DNA from: an uncultured Bacteroidota bacterium
GTDB lineage: Bacteria; Bacteroidota; Bacteroidia; Chitinophagales; Saprospiraceae
Direction of reading: 5' to 3'
Length of the DNA stretch: 34,461 nt
Assembly (NCBI GenBank): GCA_937861115.1
Contig: CALMBD010000126.1
Span: 1-34,461 of the forward strand
The notes beneath the pieces were generated by a model. It was not told the DNA's origin. It did not search any database and saw only the letters and a list, made by a program, of their open reading frames with translations. A program made the translations under genes and the position numbers. Shown one piece after another: positions 2,251-34,456 of the stretch (the stretch's first letter is position 1; each line of letters begins with the position of its first letter).

Positions 2251-3366
2251 TCACCGCTTCAACATTTTCACTACCATCCCGCTTTTCATCCGTGGCTCGA
2301 AGTACGTGCTCTTGGGCGGCAGACTTTCTCCTGCATCGGCCATGCGCATCATGTCTTCAAAAGCAACCGGATACAACAGGAAGCCTATACGATCGTCGCT
2401 GTCGTTGGTGGCTTTGCGCAGCCCTTCCAGTCCTTTCACCCCGTCGACATAATTGATCCGAGTATCAGTTCTTACATCCTCAATGCCGATGATGTTGCGC
2501 AGCACGAGTTCGTTGAGCAGTGTGGCATCCAGTACGACGCGGTCTTTGGCGTATTTATCCAGAATGTCTTTTTTCCAGTGGAGGCTGTACCACTCCTTGT
2601 GGATGTACATGACGATTTCGTGCTTCTCCCGGGGTTTGCGCGGTTCGGGCAGTACGCTAAGGTCGAACAGGCGCGACATTTGAACGATGAACTGGGTCGG
2701 GCTTACATCGCGCAGGCCTTCGACCACGCGGTTGTAGTCGAGAATTTCCAGCTGGTCGGACGCAAAAAAAGCACAGAACAGGTTGTCGAAGTCGAGTTCC
2801 GGGTTTTTATCTTTCAGACGTTCGTGCAGCAGGGCGATGGTTGTGGTGCGGTGGTGGCCATCGGCGATATAGGTTCGGTTGACCTGGCTGGCAAACATTT
2901 CCTGCAGGTGTTGTATTTCTGCGGGATCGGTCACACACCACACACTATGCGTCTGGCGGTCTTTGACAAAGCGCGTGACGTAGAGGGGCTTGTTGGAGCC
3001 GGCGAAGTTGTCGAGCCATTGGCTGATATCCGGCGCGGGCGGGTAAGTCAGCAGCACCGGCTTCAGGATGGCATTCCAGCGCAGAAAGAGCTGCATTTGT
3101 TGTTGTTCGCGTTCGCTGAGCGTTTTTTCGTGTTTCTTTACCTTGCCTGCGAAAAAATCCTCCACATCGTCGAGTGCGATGAGGCCTATGTGCTTTCGCA
3201 CCTCGGTTTCGATCTGATAAATGTAAAAAGCTGTTGCCGGTGCAGTCTCAAAAAAGCCGTTGGCCTGAAATTCGCGAAAGGAGTTTTTGGCGTCGTCGCA
3301 GAAGGAATCGGGAGAGGCAATAAAGTCGAAATTCGGGTAGGTGCCGTGAAATGGTTTTATTTGCAT
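2251..3366 (-). CDS. DUF1015 family protein
   Basis: A 371-residue cytoplasmic protein of the DUF1015 family, whose biochemical role is not established. The evidence is the near-start MQIKPFHGTYP, which resembles the usual I-x-PF opening of the family, the region AFYIYQIE, and the family signature ADGHHRTTT in the middle of the protein. The start was placed at the ATG at 3364-3366, because the 16 extra residues of the longer frame look like leader sequence and the family begins at this point. Members are often encoded near serine-biosynthesis genes, but no such genes are present here. It converges on gyrB across the palindrome at 2202-2235 and diverges from the cyclase gene. Confidence 0.85.
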   Translation of the reverse strand: MQIKPFHGTYPNFDFIASPDSFCDDAKNSFREFQANGFFETAPATAFYIYQIETEVRKHIGLIALDDVEDFFAGKVKKHEKTLSEREQQQMQLFLRWNAILKPVLLTYPPAPDISQWLDNFAGSNKPLYVTRFVKDRQTHSVWCVTDPAEIQHLQEMFASQVNRTYIADGHHRTTTIALLHERLKDKNPELDFDNLFCAFFASDQLEILDYNRVVEGLRDVSPTQFIVQMSRLFDLSVLPEPRKPREKHEIVMYIHKEWYSLHWKKDILDKYAKDRVVLDATLLNELVLRNIIGIEDVRTDTRINYVDGVKGLEGLRKATNDSDDRIGFLLYPVAFEDMMRMADAGESLPPKSTYFEPRMKSGMVVKMLKR

Positions 3367-3434
3367 AGGTGGATGGTTAGAGCCTGGTAAAAGTAGCGGT
3401 TTTTCAAAAAGCAATCCGTCTAAAGCAAATAGAC

Positions 3435-3464
3435 TTGGTCAAAAGTGAAAATCTTCGACCTTTG
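3435..3464 (+). promoter_or_regulatory. Promoter of the cyclase-CHAT-TPR operon
   Basis: TTG at 3435-3437 and GACCTTTG at 3457-3464 are separated by 19 bases, which is the right geometry for a Bacteroidota housekeeping promoter. The -7 element differs from TAnnTTTG only in its first base. The same GACCTTTG octamer lies before the TonB receptor and carA genes. The predicted leader is about 85 bases. Confidence 0.6.
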
Positions 3465-3557
3465 TCTTTCTCGCTATATTTCTGCGCAGTTAAAAACAAG
3501 AATTAAATTTTGCTCGTTTGTAACGCGCCCCGGTTATCAAAGTATCGAATTCCTGAC

Positions 3558-5174
3558 ATGAAACATCAATCCGCCTTTGTTTTTATATTCATGTTGCTCG
3601 CCGCCGGCTGGCTCAGCGCTCAATCTGTCGGTGAACTGGAGTCCCGGATCAAAAAAGCAAGTTCCAAGACCGACAAGATGAACTTGTCGTATCAGGTTGC
3701 TGAAAAACTGATCGGCTCCAACCCCGCCAAGGCATCCGATTATGCGCAACAAGCCAGCCAACTGGCCACCGAACTGGGCGACAAGCGCAAAGAAGCAGAT
3801 GCTGCCTACCTCAGCGCGGAAGGGCAATATCGCGCCCGGAAGTACAGCGAGGCCGCCAGCCGCTTTCAACATGCCTGGAATTCTGCGCGCAACTACGGCC
3901 TTCGGGAGGTAGCCCTCAATGCGACCGAAAAACTGCAGGATATTGCGCTCAAGCAGAACGACTACCGCGAAGCGCTCAAATGGAGCAAGGAGACGGTGGC
4001 CTATCTCAAAGAAGCCGGCGGCGGCGTGCGCAGTGGAGGCGATGCCGTCAGACGTCTCGAGAACCAGCTCGCCGCAGCGGAGGCCGACAACCGCTCCCTG
4101 CGCGAACAGATCGCTCAACTTACCGGCCAAAGCCAGGTGCTGGAAACGACATACCAATCGCAACTGCAGGAGACAGAACAAAAAACGCGCAAGGAACTGA
4201 CGAAAAAAGACTCCGCTATCATACAGTTCGCACAGGAAAAACAACGCGCCGATTCATTGATCCGGACGAAGGCCATCCTCCTCAAAAACCTCACCGAGGA
4301 ACAGATGATCGACTCCATTGTGCGCGCCCAACAGGAACGCGAACTACAGATACAGAAAAGACGGGTAGTGGAGGCTGAACTCAAGCAGCAGGAAGGCGAA
4401 AATATCCGGAACGTACTGGCGTTGGCATCGGTTTTTATCCTGGTGCTCGCCCTGTTGTTTTATTTTCGCTTTCGCGCCAAGAAACGTGCAGCCAACGAAC
4501 TGACGCTGAAAAACGCCATGATCGAGGAAGAACAAAAACGCAGCGACGGACTGTTGCTCAATATTCTCCCGCCGGCCATTGCCCAGGAACTGAAAACCCG
4601 GAACAAGGTCGCGGCACGGCGATACGACCAGGCGACGGTCATGTTTACCGACTTTATCGGATTTACCACCATATCGGAACGCCTGAGCCCCGAAAGACTG
4701 GTAGAGGAACTCGATTACTGTTTTTCCAATTTCGATCGCATCATTGAAAAATACCGTATCGAAAAGATCAAAACGGTTGGCGACGCCTACATCTGCGCCA
4801 GCGGCCTATCCGAGCAGGTCGCCAGTCCCGGCGACATGGTAAAGGCAGCGCTGGAGATTCAGGACTTCCTGCTCCACGTAAAAGCGGAGCGTATGGACCA
4901 GGGGCTACCCTTCTTTGAAGCGCGGGTCGGTGTGCATACCGGGCCAGTGGTGGCGGGAGTTGTAGGGGCCAAAAAGTTTGCCTACGATATCTGGGGAGAT
5001 ACTGTCAACATCTCTGCACGTATGGAAGAGGCCTGCGAACCGGGCCGTGTCAATGTGAGTGAAGACACTTACTGGCTCGCCAAATACGAATTCGAGTGGC
5101 AGCACCGGGGCAAGATTGCAGCCAAAAACAAGGGCACTATGGATATGTACTATGTGGTTTCTATGAAAACCTGA
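3558..5174 (+). CDS. Membrane class III adenylate cyclase with extracytoplasmic TPR-like region
   Basis: This 538-residue protein probably makes cyclic AMP. Order of parts: a Sec signal peptide ending in LSAQ (about 1-21), a helical TPR-like region (about 30-150), a coiled coil (about 165-280), one membrane segment (about 285-305, NVLALASVFILVLALLFYF), a short linker, and a C-terminal class III cyclase domain (about 355-535). The metal-binding aspartates D365 (FTDF) and D409 (VGDAY) are present. So are the adenine-selecting pair K405 and D477 (AYDIWGD) and the transition-state residues N484 and R488, which favours ATP over GTP. The signal peptide and membrane segment place the helical region outside the cytoplasmic membrane and the catalytic domain inside, as in a sensor. 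The start was moved to 3558 because the upstream residues precede a clear signal peptide. It is the first gene of an operon, 22 bases before the CHAT gene. Confidence 0.85.
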   Translation: MKHQSAFVFIFMLLAAGWLSAQSVGELESRIKKASSKTDKMNLSYQVAEKLIGSNPAKASDYAQQASQLATELGDKRKEADAAYLSAEGQYRARKYSEAASRFQHAWNSARNYGLREVALNATEKLQDIALKQNDYREALKWSKETVAYLKEAGGGVRSGGDAVRRLENQLAAAEADNRSLREQIAQLTGQSQVLETTYQSQLQETEQKTRKELTKKDSAIIQFAQEKQRADSLIRTKAILLKNLTEEQMIDSIVRAQQERELQIQKRRVVEAELKQQEGENIRNVLALASVFILVLALLFYFRFRAKKRAANELTLKNAMIEEEQKRSDGLLLNILPPAIAQELKTRNKVAARRYDQATVMFTDFIGFTTISERLSPERLVEELDYCFSNFDRIIEKYRIEKIKTVGDAYICASGLSEQVASPGDMVKAALEIQDFLLHVKAERMDQGLPFFEARVGVHTGPVVAGVVGAKKFAYDIWGDTVNISARMEEACEPGRVNVSEDTYWLAKYEFEWQHRGKIAAKNKGTMDMYYVVSMKT

Positions 5175-5196
5175 TCATAAAAGACGGGATTGCAGC

Positions 5197-6660
5197 ATGA
5201 ACTACCGCAACATAAAAATATACGTCGAGAACAACAAGATCTCCCTGAAGATCGAGGCCTCCTCGAATGCCGACGCACCGCTGCCCGTCATTCCCAACAA
5301 CTACAACCTCGAAAAACTCCACCTGCAGATCAGGGTTTCGAAGATTTTCCAGAAAGTGCTGAATATCCGCCGCACCATGGTTAAAAGCGAAATCGAGATA
5401 TTCGACCGGGAAGACTTTGTTATTCTGGGTAATATGCTGAGCAACCTGCTCACGCTGTCAAAAGACGAAGAGAATGGCAAGAACATATTGATGGAGTTTT
5501 TCGATATGTACTACAAGGAGGTGATCGAAACGCCGGACCAGAGTCGCATCCGCCTTTTTTTGGAATTTGACAAAAATGCACGCGAACTGGCCGAACTGCC
5601 CTGGGAATACATCCGGTACAAAGACACTTATCTGGGCGCGCATCCTTACAATTGCGTCAACCTGATGCGGAAAATACCGCTTGGAGCGGAATACGAAGAC
5701 CGGCAGTTTACGCCGCCCAACCGCCTGTCGGTGATCCTGATTCTTGCAGACCCCGGGACGCCGCCATATCAAATCGATCAAAAGGAAAAAAACGACCTGA
5801 TCGGTATGCTGGAACACCTGAAAAAACGGGTCGACAACAGCGACAAAGAAAAAGACCCGGCATGGCAGGAAGAAAAAAGCCGCTTTAATTTCAGGGTGAT
5901 CGAATCGCCGCACCGCAAAGACCTGATCGACCGGTTGAAAGAAGCCAGGCAGGAACTGGACCTGCAAAACGAACCCTATATTGTTCATCTTTTCGGCCAT
6001 GCCCGTCCGGATGCTGTGGCCCTGGCGCCTCAGGATGAATACAGCACCGAACCCGACTGGGTGAGCGACAAAAATTTTGCCGCGCTTTTTGATAAACTGA
6101 TCCCTTCCGAAAAGCCGCCCCTGTTTGTCATGACGGCCTGCGACAGCGGGAAAATCGTCAACTTTACCGAAAATCGTGGTGTGGCCTTCCAGTTGCTGGT
6201 CCAGCAGAAAATGATGGCTGTGCTGGCCATGCAAAATGAGGTGCTGTCTTCCGTTGCCTTTAGTTTTATGGAGAAGATGTACCAGGCATTGCTCGATGGC
6301 GCAGATATCGCCGAGGCAGTAACCAGGGGCCGGTCGTTTTTGGGCGCCGACTACTTCGACGAACCATACAGCAACAATGCGTTCGGCAGCCCCATCCTTT
6401 TTGTTACAACAGACAAACTCCTGCACCTGATACAACCCGCAACCGCATCGGAAGAAGAGTGGGTTAAGAAGATTTGCAAGTTGAAACCCAAACCCCCGTG
6501 TCGCGAGCCGCAGTTTTACCATCCGTTTGAAAAACAGTGCAAGATTTGCGGCGGCGATCTGGAAGAACTCGGCGCTGAAACGGAATCTTTTGCCGCTTCC
6601 CACTCCTCAAGTTCGGATGCAACATCGCGGAGCACCAAATCCACTTCCAGAAGTATTTGA
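5197..6660 (+). CDS. CHAT-domain cysteine protease with C-terminal Cys cluster
   Basis: CHAT proteases belong to clan CD with caspases, and some act as cell-death or defence effectors. Residues of about 70-400 form the CHAT domain: a LELAELPWEYIRY-like block (here ARELAELPWEYIRY), the catalytic His268 in HLFGHARPD and the catalytic Cys315 in TACDSG, with AFGSPILF near its end. Both catalytic residues are intact, so the protein is probably active. There is no signal peptide or membrane segment, which suggests the cytoplasm. After the protease domain come four cysteines, C427-x7-C435-x12-C448-x2-C451, that could bind zinc, then a Ser/Thr-rich tail from about 462. It lies 22 bases after the cyclase and 21 bases before the TPR gene, so it is probably co-transcribed. 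The substrate is unknown. CHAT assignment is confident; the function is inference. Confidence 0.85.
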   Translation: MNYRNIKIYVENNKISLKIEASSNADAPLPVIPNNYNLEKLHLQIRVSKIFQKVLNIRRTMVKSEIEIFDREDFVILGNMLSNLLTLSKDEENGKNILMEFFDMYYKEVIETPDQSRIRLFLEFDKNARELAELPWEYIRYKDTYLGAHPYNCVNLMRKIPLGAEYEDRQFTPPNRLSVILILADPGTPPYQIDQKEKNDLIGMLEHLKKRVDNSDKEKDPAWQEEKSRFNFRVIESPHRKDLIDRLKEARQELDLQNEPYIVHLFGHARPDAVALAPQDEYSTEPDWVSDKNFAALFDKLIPSEKPPLFVMTACDSGKIVNFTENRGVAFQLLVQQKMMAVLAMQNEVLSSVAFSFMEKMYQALLDGADIAEAVTRGRSFLGADYFDEPYSNNAFGSPILFVTTDKLLHLIQPATASEEEWVKKICKLKPKPPCREPQFYHPFEKQCKICGGDLEELGAETESFAASHSSSSDATSRSTKSTSRSI

Positions 6661-6681
6661 ACCACCCCAAGCCGATCTGCC

Positions 6682-9312
6682 ATGCTTGAAGCAAAGGAAA
6701 TCACCGATCTGTTGGCAAAAACGTATTTCAATGCCGCCCGTAGTGAAGGGATCGACATGGTAAAGGTCGCGTCGGTGCTGGAACACCTTCGCCCCCGCTT
6801 CAATGGCCCGCCTGTTTACGATATCTGGAAACATATTCGCCTCGATGAGTCCGATCTGCAGAACGACAACCTGCTGGGCGTATTTGTCCGGCTGAAATTC
6901 GATTACTACGACCTCGTTTACCGCAGTGCAGTGCGCCTGATCGCTACAGAAGCAGAAAAAAATCCGGATAACGCTTTCCAGACCTGGCTCGACATTTATA
7001 TCAATGCGCTGGTCAGTTGGGAAAGCAATGTGTACGATCGTGTCGACGATATTGAACCAAAAATGGCCAGGGCGCATATCGATTTTATGCACAGCGCCCA
7101 AAAATACCACGACTTCGTTCGCGAAAACCGATGGGCCGATTGCTATGACTGGTATGCCGGACTGGCGCGCCACGAGCGCATTTCTGCCGAACTGCGTGCG
7201 GGGCTGGAAATTATCGCCGGTCAAATTCAATTGTACCATATCCTCGACCCCGAAGCAGCCAGGATACATTTTGAGAAGGCGCAGGCACTCGGACTGAAAT
7301 CGGCAAGACTGGAACGCGCCTTTGGCGACCTCCACCTCAATAAACAGGAATTCGATGCAGCGCGATTGCGTTACCTCACAGCGCTCTCGTACGACGATGC
7401 CGATGCCGACAACTATATTGCCCTGGGCGACAGCTACCGCGACGAGCGCAAATACAAACTCGCCGAAGATTACTACCGGCAGGCCATCAGGCACAATCCC
7501 ATCGATGTCAGTGCCTACGACCGCCTGATCTACCTTTACGGCGAGCCGGATATTTTTTCCGAAAATGTGGATAAAATCCCGGCTTTGCTCGAGAAGATCG
7601 AATTGCTCAATCCGAAATCAAAAGATGAGCGCTACGCCAACTGGCGCTACGGCAGTTACAGGAGTGTCGGAGGCGCTTATTATCGCAATAACGACTTTTC
7701 CCAGGCTGTTATATGGTACCGGAAAGCCATCAAAAGCCAGCCCCGCTGGCCGCTCGCCTACCTCGACCTGGGCTATGCCCTTTATGCCGACAAGAAAACT
7801 GCCGAGGCCAAAAAAGCGTTGCTCAAGGCGGAGTCGATCTCTCCCGATAACTTTGATGTGATCTGGGCCCTGGCCTGGTTTTACGACCAGGAAAAAATCA
7901 GCGCACGCGCATCGGAATACTACAACCGGTGCCTGGAAATACGGCCACAGGCCGGCAAAACGCTCCACGTCGTGCTGGGCGATATTTATGCCAATCAGAT
8001 GGGCGATTATGATCGCGCCATCGAACAGTACGAAAAGGCTACTGTCCTTAATCCCGGCGATGCCACAGGCTTTGAAAAACTGGCAAAGGCATACACTGAA
8101 CGCAACCGCTCCGAGCAGGCGGAAAGCGCGTGGCATCGTGCAGCAGCGCTGGACCCGGCGAAGAGCGATTACCAGAATGAAATTGGCATCATCTATTACC
8201 GGCGCGGGGATTATGCCAAAGCTGCAGAATACTTCCAAAAAGCACTCGATCTGCGCCCAACCGATGTCGTCATCAACGATAACCTCGGTCAGGCTTTACA
8301 AAACGCAGGGCGAATAGATGAGGCAGAGCGTGTTTACCTGAAATCGCTGGAAATGACGCCCGAAAATGCCCCCTATCACAACCGCCTGGGTAACTTCTAC
8401 ACTAACATTGGGCAGCAGGAAAAAGCGCTGGAACAGTACCGGATAGCTGTGGAACAAGATGCCTCCAACCCGGTTTACCATGAAAATATGGGCTTCATTT
8501 ACAAAGCAATGAACATGCCCGACGAGGCCAGACGCAGTTATGAAAAAGCGGCCGGGCTGGCGCCGGAAAACGGCAATTACCCCAACGAGATCGGTATTCT
8601 TTATTTTAGTCAGAACGACTTTGAAAAGGCGGCCGAATACTTCAAAAAAGCAACCGACCTGAACCCCGACGACGGCGTTATGTTCGATAACCTGGGCCAG
8701 TCGCTCGAAAGAACGGGCCGCGCCGAGGCAGAACAGGCCTATCTGCGTGCCACGACCCTGAAGCCTGATCGCGACGATTACCTGAACCGTCTCGGTAATT
8801 TTTATGCCAATAAGGGGGAAGACGACAAAGCGGTACCCTGGTATGAAAAAGCCATTGCCGTGAATCCGGGCGACAGTGTGTACTATTCCAATCTGGCATC
8901 GTCGCAACGCAAGCTCGCCCGATATGAAGAAGCCGAAAAAACATGCCTTGCCGGACTTGCCGTATCGCCCGACTACCACATCCTGCTTAACCTGATGGGC
9001 GTGCTTTGTCTGGACCGGAAGGCGTACGACACCGCCCTCGAATACATCCGCAAAGCTGTGGCGATCGACCCCGGCAACCAGATTTACCAAATTAATCTCG
9101 CCGAGACATACTACATGCTGGGCGATTATGCGAATGCTTCCGAGCACGTTATGCGGGCGATCGAGTTGCAGCCCGACAACGAACTTTATCCGACCTATCT
9201 GCTGAAAGCCACCGAGACGCTTTCAGATAAATCCGCCTTTGTTACCCGGCTTCGCGCACTGGCTATCGCAAACCCCCGGCTTCAGGAGACAATAGAGGCC
9301 CTGGAGGGGTAG
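6682..9312 (+). CDS. Large TPR-repeat protein
   Basis: An 876-residue protein without signal peptide or membrane segments, made mostly of tetratricopeptide repeats and so probably a cytoplasmic protein-binding scaffold. Residues 1 to about 185 form a helical region that I do not recognise. From about 190 to 850 there are roughly 16 TPR units of 34 residues, for example around DNYIALGDSYRDERKYKLAE. Residues 497-632 and 633-767 are copies of one 136-residue block (four TPRs): both begin with NEIGI, continue with AAEYF and DNLGQ, and then RLGNFY. It is the last gene of the cyclase-CHAT-TPR operon, 21 bases after the CHAT stop. Because TPR and CHAT parts are fused in the type III-E CRISPR protease, this protein may be the regulator or substrate adaptor of the CHAT protease; this is inference. 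Confidence 0.85.
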   Translation: MLEAKEITDLLAKTYFNAARSEGIDMVKVASVLEHLRPRFNGPPVYDIWKHIRLDESDLQNDNLLGVFVRLKFDYYDLVYRSAVRLIATEAEKNPDNAFQTWLDIYINALVSWESNVYDRVDDIEPKMARAHIDFMHSAQKYHDFVRENRWADCYDWYAGLARHERISAELRAGLEIIAGQIQLYHILDPEAARIHFEKAQALGLKSARLERAFGDLHLNKQEFDAARLRYLTALSYDDADADNYIALGDSYRDERKYKLAEDYYRQAIRHNPIDVSAYDRLIYLYGEPDIFSENVDKIPALLEKIELLNPKSKDERYANWRYGSYRSVGGAYYRNNDFSQAVIWYRKAIKSQPRWPLAYLDLGYALYADKKTAEAKKALLKAESISPDNFDVIWALAWFYDQEKISARASEYYNRCLEIRPQAGKTLHVVLGDIYANQMGDYDRAIEQYEKATVLNPGDATGFEKLAKAYTERNRSEQAESAWHRAAALDPAKSDYQNEIGIIYYRRGDYAKAAEYFQKALDLRPTDVVINDNLGQALQNAGRIDEAERVYLKSLEMTPENAPYHNRLGNFYTNIGQQEKALEQYRIAVEQDASNPVYHENMGFIYKAMNMPDEARRSYEKAAGLAPENGNYPNEIGILYFSQNDFEKAAEYFKKATDLNPDDGVMFDNLGQSLERTGRAEAEQAYLRATTLKPDRDDYLNRLGNFYANKGEDDKAVPWYEKAIAVNPGDSVYYSNLASSQRKLARYEEAEKTCLAGLAVSPDYHILLNLMGVLCLDRKAYDTALEYIRKAVAIDPGNQIYQINLAETYYMLGDYANASEHVMRAIELQPDNELYPTYLLKATETLSDKSAFVTRLRALAIANPRLQETIEALEG

Positions 9313-9332
9313 TACAGCAAAGCCATGGCTGC

Positions 9333-9411
9333 CTGGCGATTGAAGACTTTGCAGCGGCCGGTTCCAGACCAACATATCGAAAATGGCCGCTGTAAAATCT
9401 GCAATCGCCAG
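9333..9411. repeat. Long imperfect inverted repeat between convergent genes
   Basis: The arms at 9333-9359 and 9385-9411 are 27 bases each and match at 24 positions. One of the three mismatches would be a G-U pair in RNA. The loop is 25 bases. The repeat fills most of the 119-base gap between the TPR gene and the convergent DUF4920 gene. There is no T-run on either side, so it is not a standard intrinsic terminator. A perfect 10-base palindrome (AGCCATGGCT, 9321-9330) lies next to it. It could stop transcription from both sides or be a REP-like mobile repeat. Confidence 0.75.
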
Positions 9412-9431
9412 ACAAACAAGTTTATGGCCTT

Positions 9432-9911
9432 TTAGTCCGTGATCAGCACACCGGCCGCTTCATAGGCCAGTTCCCGCTTGGGTTCGGTAATCTTTTCGAT
9501 CTCTTCTTTCGATTTTCCGGCATCTTCGGCATAGTGGCGCAGCACATCGACCGGTGTCACGTCGACATAGGCGTAACCATCTACTACAACGTGTCTGCCG
9601 GAAAGGTCTTTCGGCATGAAGAAGGCGTAATCCTTAAAAGTAACCCGCATTTCGGGCACGCCCGGCTGATCGGACACCAACGTCATCCAGCAGCCCTTTT
9701 TCTGGCACACCTGGCTGACCTTTCCGCTGACCTTTATGGCAAGCGAGTCCGTTTCGGTCATTTTGGAAATCAGGTCATCGTAAGAGATGGCATCATCTGC
9801 TGTAGTGGCAGCGCCAAAGTGCTTGTTGTCTCCCTGTTGTTGGGTTTGGGCATTGCCGCAGGCGAAGAAAAATACAGTCGCGCAAAAGCCGAAAATCAGA
9901 TTTTTTAACAT
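9432..9911 (-). CDS. DUF4920 lipoprotein
   Basis: A 159-residue protein with a lipoprotein signal peptide: FFFAC places the acylated cysteine at residue 18, so the mature protein is probably anchored to a membrane facing the periplasm. The remainder matches the DUF4920 family, recognisable by VSGKVSQVCQKKGCWM followed by a compact beta-rich domain that has TFKDYAFFMPKDLSG. DUF4920 proteins resemble small OB-fold-like domains and have no settled function. The two cysteines in VCQKKGC are a typical feature. It is transcribed alone from its own promoter at 9970-9999, toward the CHAT-TPR operon, and there is nothing to tie it to that operon functionally. Confidence 0.8.
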   Translation of the reverse strand: MLKNLIFGFCATVFFFACGNAQTQQQGDNKHFGAATTADDAISYDDLISKMTETDSLAIKVSGKVSQVCQKKGCWMTLVSDQPGVPEMRVTFKDYAFFMPKDLSGRHVVVDGYAYVDVTPVDVLRHYAEDAGKSKEEIEKITEPKRELAYEAAGVLITD

Positions 9912-9939
9912 CGTTTTAAATATTTTGTAAATTATTGAA

Positions 9940-9958
9940 AGTCAGTGTTTTGCTGACT
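9940..9958 (-). other. Small hairpin in the DUF4920 leader
   Basis: AGTCAG (9940-9945) and CTGACT (9953-9958) form a 6-base-pair stem with a 7-base loop. It lies between the predicted promoter and the start of the DUF4920 gene, in the untranslated leader. It may affect mRNA stability or translation; nothing more can be said. Confidence 0.35.
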
Positions 9959-9969
9959 AAAATACGGTG

Positions 9970-9999
9970 CAAAAGTACAAAATGCCACGGATACGGCAA
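9970..9999 (-). promoter_or_regulatory. Promoter of the DUF4920 lipoprotein gene
   Basis: Read on the minus strand, TTG (9997-9999) is followed after 19 bases by TACTTTTG (9970-9977), an exact TAnnTTTG element. This is one of the clearest Bacteroidota promoters in the window. Transcription would start about 50 bases before the gene. Confidence 0.65.
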
Positions 10000-10275
10000 C
10001 CCATGGCACAATATTCGGATGGCTAAATTGTTCTTGAAATCGCTAATCCGCCTGGTTATCCCCATTACCTTTTGCGCTTTTTTAGTCAATAAGAAAGCAT
10101 ATTCCGATCTCAGCCTATTGGTCAAAATGTGTTTTTTTGTAATTCGTTGGGTGAGGCTTAATTTTCACGATTCAAGAACCCGGTTTTTTGCCGAGTTTAA
10201 TCAATTCAACAGACTGCTTGCACCCTTCGTTTTACCCACACTTTTTTGTAAATGTTATCAAATCCTGTCAGAAAC

Positions 10276-11934
10276 ATGAAGGGTCTTAATCTTTTCGTCC
10301 GCCTGCTTTTGCCGGCCATTGTGTCAGTAGCAGCACTCATTCCCACAAATCTTTCCGCTCAATGCCTGAGCGGCAACTGCCAGTCCGGTACCGGAAAATA
10401 CCGCTACAGTTCCGGTTCCGTTTACACAGGCCAATTCTCCAATGGTCAGCGTCAGGGCAATGGAAAGTTGGTTTATTCCAACAACAACGTTTATGAAGGC
10501 CAGTTCAAGTACAATAGAATGAACGGCGAAGGTACCATGGTCTACTCAAATGGCGACAAGTATGTCGGTAATTGGGTTAGCGACCAGCCCAACGGCAAGG
10601 GCAAGTACTACTGGAAAACAAAAGAGCGCTATGAAGGCGATTTTAAAAATGGCAAATTTGAAGGCCAGGGCACGATGTACTATCCCGACGGGGCCTATTA
10701 CACCGGGGGCTGGAAACAGAACCGCAAAAACGGCCAGGGAAAATTCATTGACCCCAACGGGAATGTCACCCAGGGCACCTGGGCGTTGGGTAAACTGATC
10801 AATACGACCAGTTCCACCGCATCCAACGACAAGCAGAAGACCCAAAACAAGCCCTCGGGCAACAAACCTGCTTCCACCAAGCCCGATGTGACCGGTCTGC
10901 GCAACTGCAGCAATATCTCTTGTACTTCAGGAAAAGGATATTACGACTATCCCGACGGATCACGCTGGATCGGGGAGTTCAAAAACGGCTACCCCAACGG
11001 GAAAGGGACTTGCTACTACGCCGACGGCAACCGCTATGAAGGCGAGTGGGTCAACAATGCGCCCAACGGAGAAGGTATCATGTATTTCTCCAGCGGCCGT
11101 GTGTACGGCGCGGTTTGGGTCAATGGCGCCGCTGTAAAAGAGCTGGACTCCGATGAACAGGTGCCGGCTGATCCGGTGCGCATGGAGAATACCAAAAATG
11201 TGAAGATATGGGCGGTTGTGGTTGGCGTCGGGCGTTATACTTCCATGCCTTCGCTCAAATTTACCGACGACGACGCTTACCGCTTCTATTCGTTCCTCGG
11301 CAGTGTGGAAGGCGGCGCCCTGCCCGACAATCAGATGGCACTGCTCATCGATGAAGATGCCACCCGGGCAAACATTCTTAAGAAGATGCGCGAGTACTTC
11401 CTGCGCGCCGACGAAAATGATGTGGTGTTGCTCTACTTCAGCGGCCACGGCCTGGAGGGATGCTTCCTGCCCGTCGATTATGACGGATACAACAACAAGC
11501 TCCGCCACGAAGAAATCAAACAGGTGTTCAATGAAAGCAAGGCCAAGCATAAATTGTGCATTGCCGATGCCTGCCACAGCGGCTCCCTGAACTACGGCGG
11601 TGGCGCGCTGGCGGCAAAAGGTCCGGCAGAAGTATCGCTTAAGCGGTATTACCAGGCCTTTGAAGATGCCAGCGGCGGCGTAGCCCTGCTGATGTCGTCG
11701 AAAGCGGAAGAACTCTCGCTTGAAGACCACGGGTTGCGCCAGGGTGTTTTCACCTACTATGTTCTGCAAGGCCTCAAAGGCGCTGCCGACTCTAACAACG
11801 ACTATCTGGTGACCATCAGGGAACTGTATAAATATGTGTATGCCAAGGTCCGTGAATATACGGCCAACGTCCAGACACCCGTGCTGACCGGCGATTATGA
11901 CGATTCCATGCCCGTCGCGGTAAGGCGAAACTAG
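10276..11934 (+). CDS. Secreted MORN-repeat protein with caspase-like (C14) protease domain
   Basis: A 552-residue protein. A Sec signal peptide ends at about residue 28 (NLSAQ), so the protein is probably exported. Two blocks of MORN repeats follow: about six units at 36-170 (for example GDKYVGNW, KERYEGDF) and about three at 210-290 (SRWIGEFKNGYPNGKG). A Ser/Thr/Lys-rich linker separates them. Each block opens with a C-x4-C pair (CLSGNC and CSNISC). The caspase-like domain (about 305-545) begins KIWAVVVGVGRYTSMPSLKFTDDD-like and carries the catalytic His391 (YFSGHGLEG) and Cys433 (DACHSG), both intact. MORN repeats in other proteins bind lipids or proteins. The start was set at 10276 because it begins the signal peptide. 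A strong terminator follows, so it is likely monocistronic. Substrate and cleavage specificity are unknown. Confidence 0.88.
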   Translation: MKGLNLFVRLLLPAIVSVAALIPTNLSAQCLSGNCQSGTGKYRYSSGSVYTGQFSNGQRQGNGKLVYSNNNVYEGQFKYNRMNGEGTMVYSNGDKYVGNWVSDQPNGKGKYYWKTKERYEGDFKNGKFEGQGTMYYPDGAYYTGGWKQNRKNGQGKFIDPNGNVTQGTWALGKLINTTSSTASNDKQKTQNKPSGNKPASTKPDVTGLRNCSNISCTSGKGYYDYPDGSRWIGEFKNGYPNGKGTCYYADGNRYEGEWVNNAPNGEGIMYFSSGRVYGAVWVNGAAVKELDSDEQVPADPVRMENTKNVKIWAVVVGVGRYTSMPSLKFTDDDAYRFYSFLGSVEGGALPDNQMALLIDEDATRANILKKMREYFLRADENDVVLLYFSGHGLEGCFLPVDYDGYNNKLRHEEIKQVFNESKAKHKLCIADACHSGSLNYGGGALAAKGPAEVSLKRYYQAFEDASGGVALLMSSKAEELSLEDHGLRQGVFTYYVLQGLKGAADSNNDYLVTIRELYKYVYAKVREYTANVQTPVLTGDYDDSMPVAVRRN

Positions 11935-11960
11935 TAATATTCAGTCACCAAAATTACCAG

Positions 11961-12013
11961 CAGATCAACGCAGACTCAGGCATCATGCCCCCTTGCGTTG
12001 ATCTGTTTTTTTT
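11961..12013 (+). terminator. Strong intrinsic terminator of the MORN-caspase gene
   Basis: A perfect 12-base-pair stem (11961-11972 with 11994-12005) is followed directly by eight Ts (12006-12013). The 21-base loop contains a second small hairpin (GGCAT/ATGCC). It starts 26 bases after the caspase stop. Confidence 0.9.
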
Positions 12014-12066
12014 AGCCGAATCTGCTGCAATAAAATTTGGCGCAACAAGCAACCATTACCCCGTTT

Positions 12067-12097
12067 TTGCCGTTCAGACGAAAGAGCGTTAACTTAG
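12067..12097 (+). promoter_or_regulatory. Probable promoter of the TPR-like membrane protein gene
   Basis: TTG at 12067-12069 and TAACTTAG at 12090-12097 are separated by 20 bases. The second element matches TAnnTTTG except at one position. It lies between the upstream terminator and the start at 12116, leaving a leader of only about 12 bases. Confidence 0.5.
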
Positions 12098-12115
12098 CGA
12101 CCAGCTCCCGATACG

Positions 12116-12781
12116 ATGAATTTCCTGCCTGCCAACCGCCTGCGACTGTACAGGAATTTTAAGGCTCTCGATGGCAACGACCATAACGGGATTATCCGGT
12201 ATTACGAGCAATTTGAGGATGGCATCAGCTCGCTGGATTTTGAGGAATATTTCGATTGCACCCTGGTATACACCAATGCTTTATTTCAGACCGGGCACCA
12301 CGGCCGCAATGTGGTGATGTGCGACCACCTGCTGGAGCTGATCATCATGCAGAATATCGAAACCTGGGGCGGAGAGGATCTATATGCCACCATATTGTTC
12401 CAGAAGGCTGCTTCCTTGTACAACCTAGACGAATATGCCCGGTCTGAACACGTGCTGCGTGAACTGATCAAGATATATCCGAACCAGCCACTTTTTCGCC
12501 GTTTTCTGGAAAAATGCCTCCTGCGCCGAAAACCGTCCTGGTTGTCCAAAACACGCGCAGCGACGGTTGCCCTTGTATTATTGTCGGCTGTTGTCATCGC
12601 TCTGGAAATCTTTGTGGTAAAACCGTTTTTCGAAGAATGGTACCGCGCGGCACAGATCACCCACAACGTAATGCTCGTATCCGGGGTCGCTGTTTTTGCA
12701 TCGGGCGAAATGCTCCACGCCCTTCGATGCCGCTGGGCAGTGATCTCCTTTACCCGGAAAATGGGCCGCCGGAACAGATAG
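12116..12781 (+). CDS. Hypothetical protein: helical TPR-like N-terminus and two membrane segments
   Basis: I do not recognise this 221-residue protein. Residues of about 5-135 are helical and look TPR-like, for example LYATILFQKAASLYNLDEYA and the following AEH-like helix with LIKIYPNQPLFRRF. There is no signal peptide. Two hydrophobic segments follow at about 144-166 (TVALVLLSAVVIALEIFVV) and 178-200 (VMLVSGVAVFASGEML), and a short basic C-terminus (FTRKMGRRNR). A hairpin in the membrane with the TPR-like part in the cytoplasm is the simplest topology. It has its own promoter after the caspase terminator and is followed by thrS in the same direction. Its closeness to the protease genes may or may not be meaningful. 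Confidence 0.65.
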   Translation: MNFLPANRLRLYRNFKALDGNDHNGIIRYYEQFEDGISSLDFEEYFDCTLVYTNALFQTGHHGRNVVMCDHLLELIIMQNIETWGGEDLYATILFQKAASLYNLDEYARSEHVLRELIKIYPNQPLFRRFLEKCLLRRKPSWLSKTRAATVALVLLSAVVIALEIFVVKPFFEEWYRAAQITHNVMLVSGVAVFASGEMLHALRCRWAVISFTRKMGRRNR

Positions 12782-26886: not shown

Positions 26887-28596
26887 TCAAGGCGTAACGG
26901 CCTTCGTCTTCTTGGTCTTCGGCATTTTACCCATGCCTGCATCCTGCCAGATGGCCTTTTTCGACTTCTTCGCTTTGGTATTGTTCGCCATACTCACCGC
27001 ATTGGTGGCGCTGATAATGCCACCGCTGACGCACAATTCAGAGAATTTGACCTTGTCTGTCGATCCGGGCTTGTTCACTTCGCCGTCTTGCTTCACCACC
27101 GAATTGATCAGGATGTCTTTCACCTGTTTGGCGGAAAGTTCGGGGTAGTAGGAGCGAATAATGGCAGCTACACCGGCAGCAGCCGGGCAGGCCATAGAAG
27201 TGCCGCTGGCGTTGCCGTATTTGTTGTCGGGAATAGTGGAATAGAGTTGTGATCCCGGCGAGAACAGGTCGACATTCTTTTTGCCGTAATTGGAGAAGCC
27301 GGCAACGCGTTTATCGCCTGATCTCCAGTTGAGGGCGCCGATTTCCAGCCAGGACGGTACGGTCTTTTCCTTTTTGAACAAACCCGCTTTTACCGGCTTT
27401 TTGTAATTGTCGTTGGGGAAATTAGCGTCGGTGTCGTTGTTTTCCGAATCATTGCCGGCAGCGTGTACGAGCAGCACGTCGTGATCAGATGCATATTTCA
27501 TAGCAGCATCTACATAATCTTTTTGTGGGCTGTACCCTTTACCAAACGACATGTTGATGATGCTGGCACCGTTATCAACGGCATAGTAGATGGCGTTGGC
27601 AACGTCTTTGTCGCGCTCGTCACCGTCGGGTACGCAGCGGACCGTCATGATGCGCACATTGTCGGCAATGCCGTTGATGCCTTTGCCGTTGTTGCGGATT
27701 GCGGCAATAATTCCGGCTACGTGCGTACCGTGGAAGGCGTCGGGGCCTTCGTACTCATTGCTGCCGTAGAAGCGGTTGCTCAGGTCGTCGGGATTGTCGC
27801 CCACGATATCGCGCGGGTTGTAATCGGGGTTGAGGTTGTATTTCAACTGGCCATCGAAATACTTGGTGGCTTCTGCCTTCTGCTCCTGAAGTTCGGTGCT
27901 ATTGGCAATGCCCTGCGCGCGCACGGCTTTCACCATAGCAATAGATTGTGCGAGTTCGGTGCTGGCGCCCTCTTCGATCTTGGCAATGTCTTCGTCGGTA
28001 TATTCTGTTTTGCCAAGGGCTTTTTCTACTGCGTTGTAAGCCTCTTCGATGGAAGCCAGTTGCTGCTCCACGCGGGCTTTACCGGATTCTGCTTCTGCGC
28101 GCTGTTCTTCGAAGGCCGTTTTGATTTCCTCGTAGTATTTGTACTCCTCGGCAGCGGGACCGTGCAGGTTTTTCGGGTCTGTTCCTTTGAACCTTTTGCT
28201 CAGGCGTACGTATTCGCGGGTGAGTTCAAGCGTTTCGTGGTGTACGCTGCCTTTTTTGCCGCCCAGAAAATTCCAGCCGTGAATATCGTCGATATAACCG
28301 TTGCCGTCGTCGTCTTTGCCGTTGCCGGGTATTTCACCCGGGTTTACCCACATAATATCTTTCAGGTCTTCGTGCTCATAGTCTACACCAGAGTCGAGTA
28401 CTGCCACGATGACAGTCTGGCCTTTTTTACCTTTCTCTTTGAGCATTTTGAGGGCCTCGTCGGAGCCGGTACCGTTCACCTGGTCTTTTGTCGGATCCAG
28501 GGTGAACCAGTTCTCCGGCGCCTTGTTGCCCTGTGCATTCAGCAGCAAGGCCGAAAAACCGAATAGGAAGATTGCTAAGCAATGCTTGATTGTCAT
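26887..28596 (-). CDS. Secreted S8 (subtilisin-like) serine protease
   Basis: A 569-residue exported protease. A Sec signal peptide ends at about residue 22 (LLLNAQ). The catalytic triad of the S8 family is complete: Asp68 (VLDSGVD), His289 (HGTHVAG) and Ser467 (GTSMACP), with the oxyanion Asn in HAAGND. The gap between Asp68 and His289 is about 220 residues, far more than the few dozen usual in subtilisins; it includes a helical, Glu/Lys/Ala-rich stretch (about 140-235) that looks like a coiled coil. The C-terminus is Lys-rich (KAKKSKK and KTKKTK) and has no type IX sorting domain that I recognise, nor a separate pro-domain before the protease. It is transcribed alone and ends at the bidirectional terminator. 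Confidence 0.9.
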   Translation of the reverse strand: MTIKHCLAIFLFGFSALLLNAQGNKAPENWFTLDPTKDQVNGTGSDEALKMLKEKGKKGQTVIVAVLDSGVDYEHEDLKDIMWVNPGEIPGNGKDDDGNGYIDDIHGWNFLGGKKGSVHHETLELTREYVRLSKRFKGTDPKNLHGPAAEEYKYYEEIKTAFEEQRAEAESGKARVEQQLASIEEAYNAVEKALGKTEYTDEDIAKIEEGASTELAQSIAMVKAVRAQGIANSTELQEQKAEATKYFDGQLKYNLNPDYNPRDIVGDNPDDLSNRFYGSNEYEGPDAFHGTHVAGIIAAIRNNGKGINGIADNVRIMTVRCVPDGDERDKDVANAIYYAVDNGASIINMSFGKGYSPQKDYVDAAMKYASDHDVLLVHAAGNDSENNDTDANFPNDNYKKPVKAGLFKKEKTVPSWLEIGALNWRSGDKRVAGFSNYGKKNVDLFSPGSQLYSTIPDNKYGNASGTSMACPAAAGVAAIIRSYYPELSAKQVKDILINSVVKQDGEVNKPGSTDKVKFSELCVSGGIISATNAVSMANNTKAKKSKKAIWQDAGMGKMPKTKKTKAVTP

Positions 28597-33301: not shown

Positions 33302-34456
33302 ATGAAACAACTTGTCACCGCCGCGCTATTCCTTTTCGTTTTAAGCGCCGCTTCCGCCCAGGACCTGCCTGCTGAACTCAACGGGTATAAATTCACCATT
33401 GCCAAAAAACTCGGCGTCACGCCGGTAGAAAATCAAAACAAATCCGGCACCTGCTGGGTGTATTCCGCCAATTCATTTTTTGAAAGTGAATTGCTGCGTA
33501 TGGGCAAACCACCCGTCGATCTGAGCGAAATGTACACGGTTCATGCCGGGTATCTCGAACGCGCCGAAAATTATGTGCGCCGCCAGGGCGCCGCTGCATT
33601 CGGCCAGGGCGCCGAAACCCATGATGTGCTGAACATCATTCGCGAATACGGCATGATGCCCCAGTCGGTTTACAGCGGATTTCCCGCCGGCCAGGACAAG
33701 CCCGTACACGGCGAAATGGAAGCCGTGCTCAAGGCTGTTGTCGATGCAGTGATCAAGGTACCCGACGGCAAGTTAAGCCAGCAATGGCAGAAGGCTTACG
33801 CCGGCGCACTCGACGGGTATATGGGCACTCCTCCGGCTTCATTTATGGTCAACGGGAAGCAGTACACGCCGCAAACCTATTTTCAAAGCCTGGGTATCAA
33901 CCTTGACGATTATGTAGCGCTGAGCTCTTATACCCATCATCCATTTTACAAGCCGTTTATCCTTGAAGTATCCGATAACTGGTCGAACGGACAGTTCTAC
34001 AACGTCCCGATCGACGAACTGATGCAGATCGCAGGTAATGCAGTCGACAAGGGTTATTCCGTTGTGTGGGCCAGCGATGTGAGCGAAAAGACGTTTTCGG
34101 CAAAAGAAGGTATGGCGGTATGGCCGGAAACGGCTTGGGATGATATGAGCCAGGACGAAAAATCGTCCGTGTTCAAGGCGCCTGTGAAGGAAAAATGGGT
34201 AAGCCAGGAAGAGCGTCAGCGCGGCTTCGATGAGTTGACCACCACCGACGACCACGGCATGCACATTACCGGCACGGCTACCGATCAGAACGGCACGAGG
34301 TATTTTATCGTAAAAAATTCCTGGGGTACCTCGGTCAACAAGGACATGGGCGGCTATTTATACGTTTCGCAGCCTTATTTCCGGTGTAAAACGATGTCGA
34401 TCCTGGTACACAAAGACGCGATCCCGACGCCGATAAGACAGAAACTGGGAGTTTGA
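33302..34456 (+). CDS. Secreted C1 cysteine protease, bleomycin-hydrolase-like
   Basis: A 384-residue papain-fold protease (C1, closest to the C1B bleomycin-hydrolase type). A signal peptide ends at about residue 20 (SAASAQ), so unlike classical cytoplasmic bleomycin hydrolases it is exported. The active-site residues are complete: Gln45 and Cys51 (QNKSGTCW), His318 (DHGMHITG) and Asn339 (VKNSWG). The LSEMYTVHAGYLERAENYV region after the catalytic Cys and the long segment between Cys and His fit C1B. There is no long pro-peptide: the mature chain begins about 25 residues before the Gln. The gene is complete, with its TGA stop five bases before the window ends. It is divergent from the OmpA-family gene. 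Confidence 0.9.
   Translation: MKQLVTAALFLFVLSAASAQDLPAELNGYKFTIAKKLGVTPVENQNKSGTCWVYSANSFFESELLRMGKPPVDLSEMYTVHAGYLERAENYVRRQGAAAFGQGAETHDVLNIIREYGMMPQSVYSGFPAGQDKPVHGEMEAVLKAVVDAVIKVPDGKLSQQWQKAYAGALDGYMGTPPASFMVNGKQYTPQTYFQSLGINLDDYVALSSYTHHPFYKPFILEVSDNWSNGQFYNVPIDELMQIAGNAVDKGYSVVWASDVSEKTFSAKEGMAVWPETAWDDMSQDEKSSVFKAPVKEKWVSQEERQRGFDELTTTDDHGMHITGTATDQNGTRYFIVKNSWGTSVNKDMGGYLYVSQPYFRCKTMSILVHKDAIPTPIRQKLGV

Follow-up and report, generated by a model that had tools for sequence, protein, structure and literature searches.

A two-gene CHAT-TPR protease module, probably acquired, behind a resident class III cyclase gene in an uncultured Saprospiraceae bacterium

In the genome of an uncultured Saprospiraceae bacterium (G000), a stretch of 34,461 nucleotides, hereafter called the window, carries three consecutive genes on the plus strand, which encode a membrane class III cyclase, a CHAT protease and a TPR protein (Table 1). 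We conclude that positions 5178-9433, with the CHAT and TPR genes, are probably an acquired two-gene module behind a resident cyclase gene, in which the TPR chain would govern the protease. The module has defined edges and its site is empty in a relative, its two genes are kept together in other genomes, the predicted fold of the protease has a clear match, and His268 and Cys315 are intact. Among proteases of the TPR-CHAT kind, the module is a new variant, split over two genes, and no description of this gene set was found in the literature searched, judged by titles or abstract starts. A first-pass annotation of the same DNA had read the three genes as one system, in which the cyclase senses an outside signal and cyclic AMP (cAMP) controls a TPR-regulated CHAT protease. 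The CHAT-TPR half of that interpretation stands, the cyclase as a member does not, and the third gene that recurs beside the pair belongs to another family, here called U357.

The insertion site

The run of three same-strand genes is real, with intergenic gaps of 22 and 21 bases as first described. When positions 4000-11000 were compared by blastn with the locus of the same-genus genome G705 (L085), the matches of 4002-5177 and 9434-11000 met at a single base of G705 (4529). This defines 5178-9433 as an insert by which neither flanking gene is interrupted. The cyclase and DUF4920 genes of G705 meet stop codon to stop codon, which amounts to a clean empty site, and the order cyclase then DUF4920 is likewise kept in G011, G019 and G035. 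Within the insert, blastn found no DNA similarity to same-genus loci (20 loci), and the G+C content resembles that of the surroundings. A different three-gene set, encoding an Ig-like secreted protein, a sigma-70 family factor and an SBBP beta-propeller protein, fills the cyclase-DUF4920 interval of G022 (L088 9708-14558), so that the site tolerates insertions and may be an insertion hot spot.

The structured element that had been noticed after the last gene is also real and forms a long, interrupted hairpin where the insert ends (Table 1); the folding energy of 9313-9431 is -51.2 kcal/mol (z -6.4). Searched for as a repeat family, it gave only short chance matches elsewhere in the window's genome, and it perhaps marks the transcription end for the converging genes.

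The CHAT and TPR proteins

Judged by its domain match, its His and Cys residues and its predicted fold, the first protein of the module is a caspase-fold CHAT protease. Both His268 and Cys315, the predicted catalytic residues, are present in the sequence and in the alignment, as first described. The modelled structure has the separase-like two-subdomain fold of the protease half, and its C-terminal end consists of a Cys-containing zinc-ribbon-like stretch and a low-confidence Ser-rich tail. The top Foldseek match of the model is the SAVED-CHAT protease 8tl0, and the link to Csx29 that had been drawn earlier is borne out by the predicted structure. PADLOC returned no match for CHAT.

The repeats of the TPR partner were recognized correctly, although their number differs: a crude score gives 18 repeat-like units between residues 174 and 833, against the approximately 16 claimed. 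The non-repeat N-terminal region is common to all aligned TPR partners (n = 13), which marks the protein as a specific partner and not just any TPR protein. No nucleotide-binding domain occurs among the Pfam matches listed for CHAT, nor among the 25 of 30 families listed for the TPR protein.

Distribution and pairing of the two genes

CHAT relatives are rare (the counts for order, phylum, family and class each include the window's own genome): they were detected in 7 of 298 order genomes at E <= 1e-6, in 1 of 395 phylum genomes at 1e-10, and in 3 of 395 class genomes at 1e-15, where the matches include a second CHAT protein in G1208 and a CHAT in G680. At 1e-8 with alignment, 18 of 298 family genomes gave a match, 15 of these being weak partial ones, and within the genus there are only weak matches, in 7 of 36 other genomes. 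A scan of genome_contigs yielded 16 loci, seven of them full-length relatives, of which three are contigs also obtained by other searches.

The pairing of CHAT and TPR was upheld, as a homologous TPR gene lies behind CHAT on the same strand in all nine closer relatives, namely those of Prolixibacteraceae (L112), Bacteroidetes SZAS-60 (L113), an uncultured Saprospiraceae (L114), Bacteroidetes P_S1 (L115), Chitinophaga silvatica (L116), Mariniphaga sediminis (L117), Dyadobacter arcticus (L119), G830 (L146) and G1208 (L158). In L112 and L119, the CHAT and TPR frames share four bases. The pair also occurs in four of the five weak same-genus loci that were fetched (L019, L020, L022, and L024), while the two remaining weak matches, in G005 and G022, were seen as short loci only. 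The pairing has its limits, which weigh against a conserved module: L023, the fifth of these weak loci, has neither a CHAT nor a TPR gene, blastp found no homologous TPR directly behind CHAT in the distant loci L118 and L120-L127 (9 of the 16), and the two-gene pair is present in none of the four weak family loci fetched out of 15 (G316, G719, G838, and G272).

In L021 526-3948 (G316) and L149 6928-10611 (G272), a single open frame spans weak matches to both CHAT and TPR, with CHAT apparently leading, and these frames may be fusions that keep the gene order of the pair. The CHAT sites of the distant pairs L019 4676-10985, L020 4765-10903 and L024 8779-14836 (G007, G009, and G023) are degenerate, and each of these loci has a third gene, which matches FHIPEP (Pfam) in L019 and L024 and is similar by blastp in L020.

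The resident cyclase

The cyclase carries FTDFIGFT at 363, IKTVGDAY at 404 and YDIWGDTVNISARM at 476, which we take to be the catalytic motifs of class III, and its N-terminus resembles a signal peptide, with a single hydrophobic stretch around residues 282-307, in agreement with the sensor-like layout first described. A full-length relative is found in 38 of 41 other same-genus genomes at 58-81% identity (81% in G705); partial matches in G027 and G020 bring the genomes with a close relative to 40 of 41, and G704 has only distant cyclases. In 26 of the 41 genomes the gene lies on one contig beside DUF1015, as in the window. PADLOC gave only weak PycC matches for the cyclase (best E 2e-6). On the sequences compared, we regard the cyclase as a long-resident core gene of the genus that is unrelated to the CHAT-TPR module.

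Its upstream region fits this picture. Of the relatives G705, G007, G009 and G022, three share the conserved block at 3449-3464 (Table 1) without change and one has it with a single differing base, and a second block at 3513-3521 is likewise conserved upstream of the cyclase in the same four genomes. As these four relatives have no CHAT or TPR gene behind the cyclase, the block belongs to the cyclase. The promoter that had been placed at 3435-3464 is the weak point of the first description: it contains this block, and a sigma-70 scan of 3300-9600, which omits Bacteroidota promoters, shows nothing there and 3 sites overall (vs. 4.5 in shuffled sequences).

That the three genes nevertheless form one signaling system is very improbable. 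It has in its favor the shared strand, the gaps of 22 and 21 bases and the class III motifs, as well as the Foldseek match to SAVED-CHAT, since the SAVED-CHAT proteases of type III CRISPR respond to a nucleotide signal. However, the empty G705 junction largely refutes it, and the outcome that the first-pass annotation had named as refuting its reading is the one observed for the cyclase; moreover, none of the 20 same-genus cyclase loci fetched has a CHAT or TPR relative beside the cyclase, and none of the 13 pair loci has a cyclase relative beside the pair, with the contigs of L022 and L146 ending shortly before CHAT. Control of the pair by cAMP is likewise unsupported, given the Pfam results for nucleotide-binding domains described above and eight further cyclase matches in the window's genome (E <= 1e-20), owing to which cAMP would not be specific to this cyclase.

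U357, a recurring third gene

In 7 of the 13 pair loci (L112, L113, L115, L116, L117, L119, and L158), CHAT is preceded by a member of a single family, U357, with about 350 residues and 34-41% identity by blastp; in L115 its start is lost at the contig end. No significant match was obtained in Pfam, NCBIfam or PADLOC (two members scanned), and the predicted fold bears a weak C2-like likeness. The family is present in 2 of 395 class genomes, and four plasmid records carry relatives, whose neighbors are a caspase-domain gene in Pseudanabaena, a papain-type protease gene in Sporomusa, a CHAT gene in Rhizobium and, on a Prosthecochloris plasmid, a gene without family name. In total, a cysteine protease gene adjoins U357 in 10 of 12 U357 loci. 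No relatives were detected in viral_contigs, and the searches made found no tie to a gasdermin or a nuclease, which leaves one possible.

In the window, the gene in front of CHAT is the cyclase and not U357, and no U357 was found at E <= 0.01 in the genome, which is 96% complete. Whole-genome searches of G224, G830 (87% complete), G007 and G030 (99% complete) gave none either. For L146 and L022, whose contigs end near the front of CHAT, absence is drawn from whole-genome searches only, and for G009 and G023 it covers the fetched stretches only.

The state of the active site follows the presence of U357. All seven U357-linked CHATs have an intact His and Cys (six by alignment, L158 by its GH and AC motifs), whereas of the seven CHATs without U357 in view only that of the window has. 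The His is replaced by Arg in L114, the Cys by Ala in L146 and by Pro in L022 and L024, and in L019 and L020 the His is replaced by Lys and the Cys motif is rebuilt, which makes the Cys column unsure in these two. The counts depend on the alignment and, the sequences being related, do not represent independent events. The plain reading of the sequences would be that the protease stays active where U357 is there to cut.

In the CHAT tree, the window's protein joins six U357-linked ones with support of 99/99, and the same seven are grouped in the tree of the TPR N-terminal region (80/89). Thus, of the traits of the U357-CHAT-TPR family, the window has a CHAT of the U357-linked clade and a TPR protein with the conserved N-terminal region, and lacks U357 in front. 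Three observations weigh against the U357 reading: the CHAT of L117, although U357-linked too, falls outside the window's group on a long branch, no protease lies beside U357 in L159, and the neighbor in L156 has no convincing domain match. In L159 2170-9075 (G931), the U357 relative is preceded by two genes, one whose product has a DyP-type peroxidase C-terminal match and one for a sensor histidine kinase.

Membership of the window's CHAT in the U357-linked group, taken together with the missing U357, would suit a decaying, functionless remnant of a U357-CHAT-TPR operon that has lost U357. We consider this unlikely, as both frames are open and of full length, His268 and Cys315 are kept, unlike in the six other CHATs without U357 in view, which lost one or both catalytic residues, and the G+C content is like that of the surroundings.

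Table 1. Coordinates of the features discussed (window positions unless a locus is named).
Feature	Position	Strand	Remarks
Inserted stretch with CHAT and TPR genes	5178-9433	+	Bounded by the cyclase and DUF4920 stop codons; blastn
CHAT protease	5197-6660	+	Separase/Csx29-like protease half (predicted); Pfam CHAT E 2e-9, 37.8 bits vs. cut-off of 24
TPR partner	6682-9312	+	Non-TPR N-terminal region, approximately residues 1-170, then about 18 TPR-like units; Pfam TPR families
Long interrupted hairpin at insert end	9330-9414		Arms 9330-9359 and 9385-9414, 87% complementary
U357 (about 350-450 residues)	L116 8918-9988; L154 6001-7089; L155 5857-7023; L157 5851-7134		Beside CHAT, caspase or papain-type proteases
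Membrane class III cyclase	3558-5174	+	Pfam Guanylate_cyc E 2.5e-50, residues 352-533; outside the CHAT-TPR module
Conserved block AAATCTTCGACCTTTG	3449-3464	+	Between the cyclase and DUF1015 genes; probable regulatory signal for these resident genes
DUF4920 gene	9432-9911	-	Pfam; tail-to-tail with the cyclase in relatives without the insert
DUF1015 gene	2251-3366	-	Pfam; conserved divergent neighbor of the cyclase

Neighboring genes and a possible role in defense

A MORN-repeat caspase gene, followed by a gene of 221 residues, lies at 10252-12781 of the window and starts 0.9 kb past the TPR gene. Its product matches the PADLOC caspase model (E 2.5e-20). Both genes adjoin DUF4920 in L085, L088, L099 and L101; in L100 the MORN-caspase is seen alone up to the contig end, and in L104 it is present without DUF4920. 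The MORN-caspase is therefore a neighbor typical of the genus, beside DUF4920 or near the cyclase where there is no insert, and lies outside the CHAT-TPR insert. The window also encodes a subtilase (S8; 26887-28596) and a C1-like peptidase (33302-34456), for which no link to CHAT-TPR was seen.

CHAT-TPR could alternatively be a free-standing anti-phage system that acts through abortive infection by proteolysis. We treat this as a serious possibility, if one with less than even chances. What makes a defense role possible is the patchy distribution and the fusion of one related CHAT, that of L019 (G007), to a TIR domain; accessory defense genes are typically patchy and inserted at gene borders, the fold relatives Csx29 and SAVED-CHAT belong to CRISPR systems, and a caspase recognized by PADLOC is nearby. 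On the other hand, PADLOC does not recognize CHAT, the MORN-caspase occurs in the genus without the insert, and U357 has no relative in viral_contigs. A defense island, for which the neighboring genes were to be checked according to the first-pass annotation, was not seen, as PADLOC matched none of ten flanking proteins of the relatives.

Proposed mechanism and implications

We return to the acquired CHAT-TPR module as the preferred explanation. By analogy with the helical half of Csx29, the TPR chain would bind CHAT, restrain it and pass on a trigger, upon which CHAT would cut a partner protein. In the seven relatives with U357, the partner would likely be U357, encoded by the gene in front. 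As no U357 was found here, the window's pair would either have another target, some other host protein, or be a recent orphan that has lost its target. The cyclase would be a mere neighbor, which at most lends its transcript to the pair.

A wider proposal is more speculative, and on balance we doubt it in its full form: the pair would be a split separase/Csx29-like protease and its cargo U357 an undescribed pro-effector, possibly a C2-like membrane-binding sandwich, switched on by the adjoining cysteine protease (CHAT in Bacteroidota and Rhizobium, a caspase in Pseudanabaena, and the papain type in Sporomusa), which would give several protease families a common execution module without a gasdermin. 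Being without a name in the libraries searched and lying beside different cysteine proteases in several phyla, U357 makes a good candidate for a new effector class switched by proteases; this lead, the most interesting one, sits outside the window. The analysis thus removes a false link from cAMP to the CHAT protease and puts a testable one in its place, and a separase-like protease on two genes makes the helical and protease halves separable for testing.

Comparison with known systems

Separase is a eukaryotic protease of one chain that cuts cohesin, and its likeness to the window's CHAT is one of predicted shape. The SAVED-CHAT protease of type III CRISPR (8tl0) carries a SAVED domain, whereas Pfam names none in the window's CHAT. 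CATRA (caspase and TPR repeat associated) proteins form ternary conflict systems of a caspase-type protease, a TPR protein and a third gene, and Pfam holds models for them. This layout is like that of U357-CHAT-TPR; no CATRA model is among the window's Pfam matches listed, and CATRA is mentioned in passing in PMC8195603. The gasdermin-protease and nuclease-protease pairs of bacterial immunity (see PMC12799240) likewise place a protease gene beside a candidate pro-effector gene (U357 in the relatives), and differ in that none of the searches made links U357 to a gasdermin or nuclease. Among the closest known systems is also Csx29, the TPR-CHAT protease of type III-E CRISPR (Craspase), which shares the separase-like fold of the protease half with the CHAT model. 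Csx29 is encoded together with Cas7-11, a crRNA array and Csx30. No Cas7-11, Csx30 or other CRISPR component was named among the window proteins scanned (part of the window's genes, with no genome-wide search for Cas7-11). Csx29 has eight repeats according to PMC10028731, vs. approximately 18 in the window's TPR protein. In Csx29, TPR and CHAT form one chain, whereas here they are encoded by two genes 21 bases apart, with the protease gene first, which suggests that an arrangement like that of Csx29 also occurs outside CRISPR.

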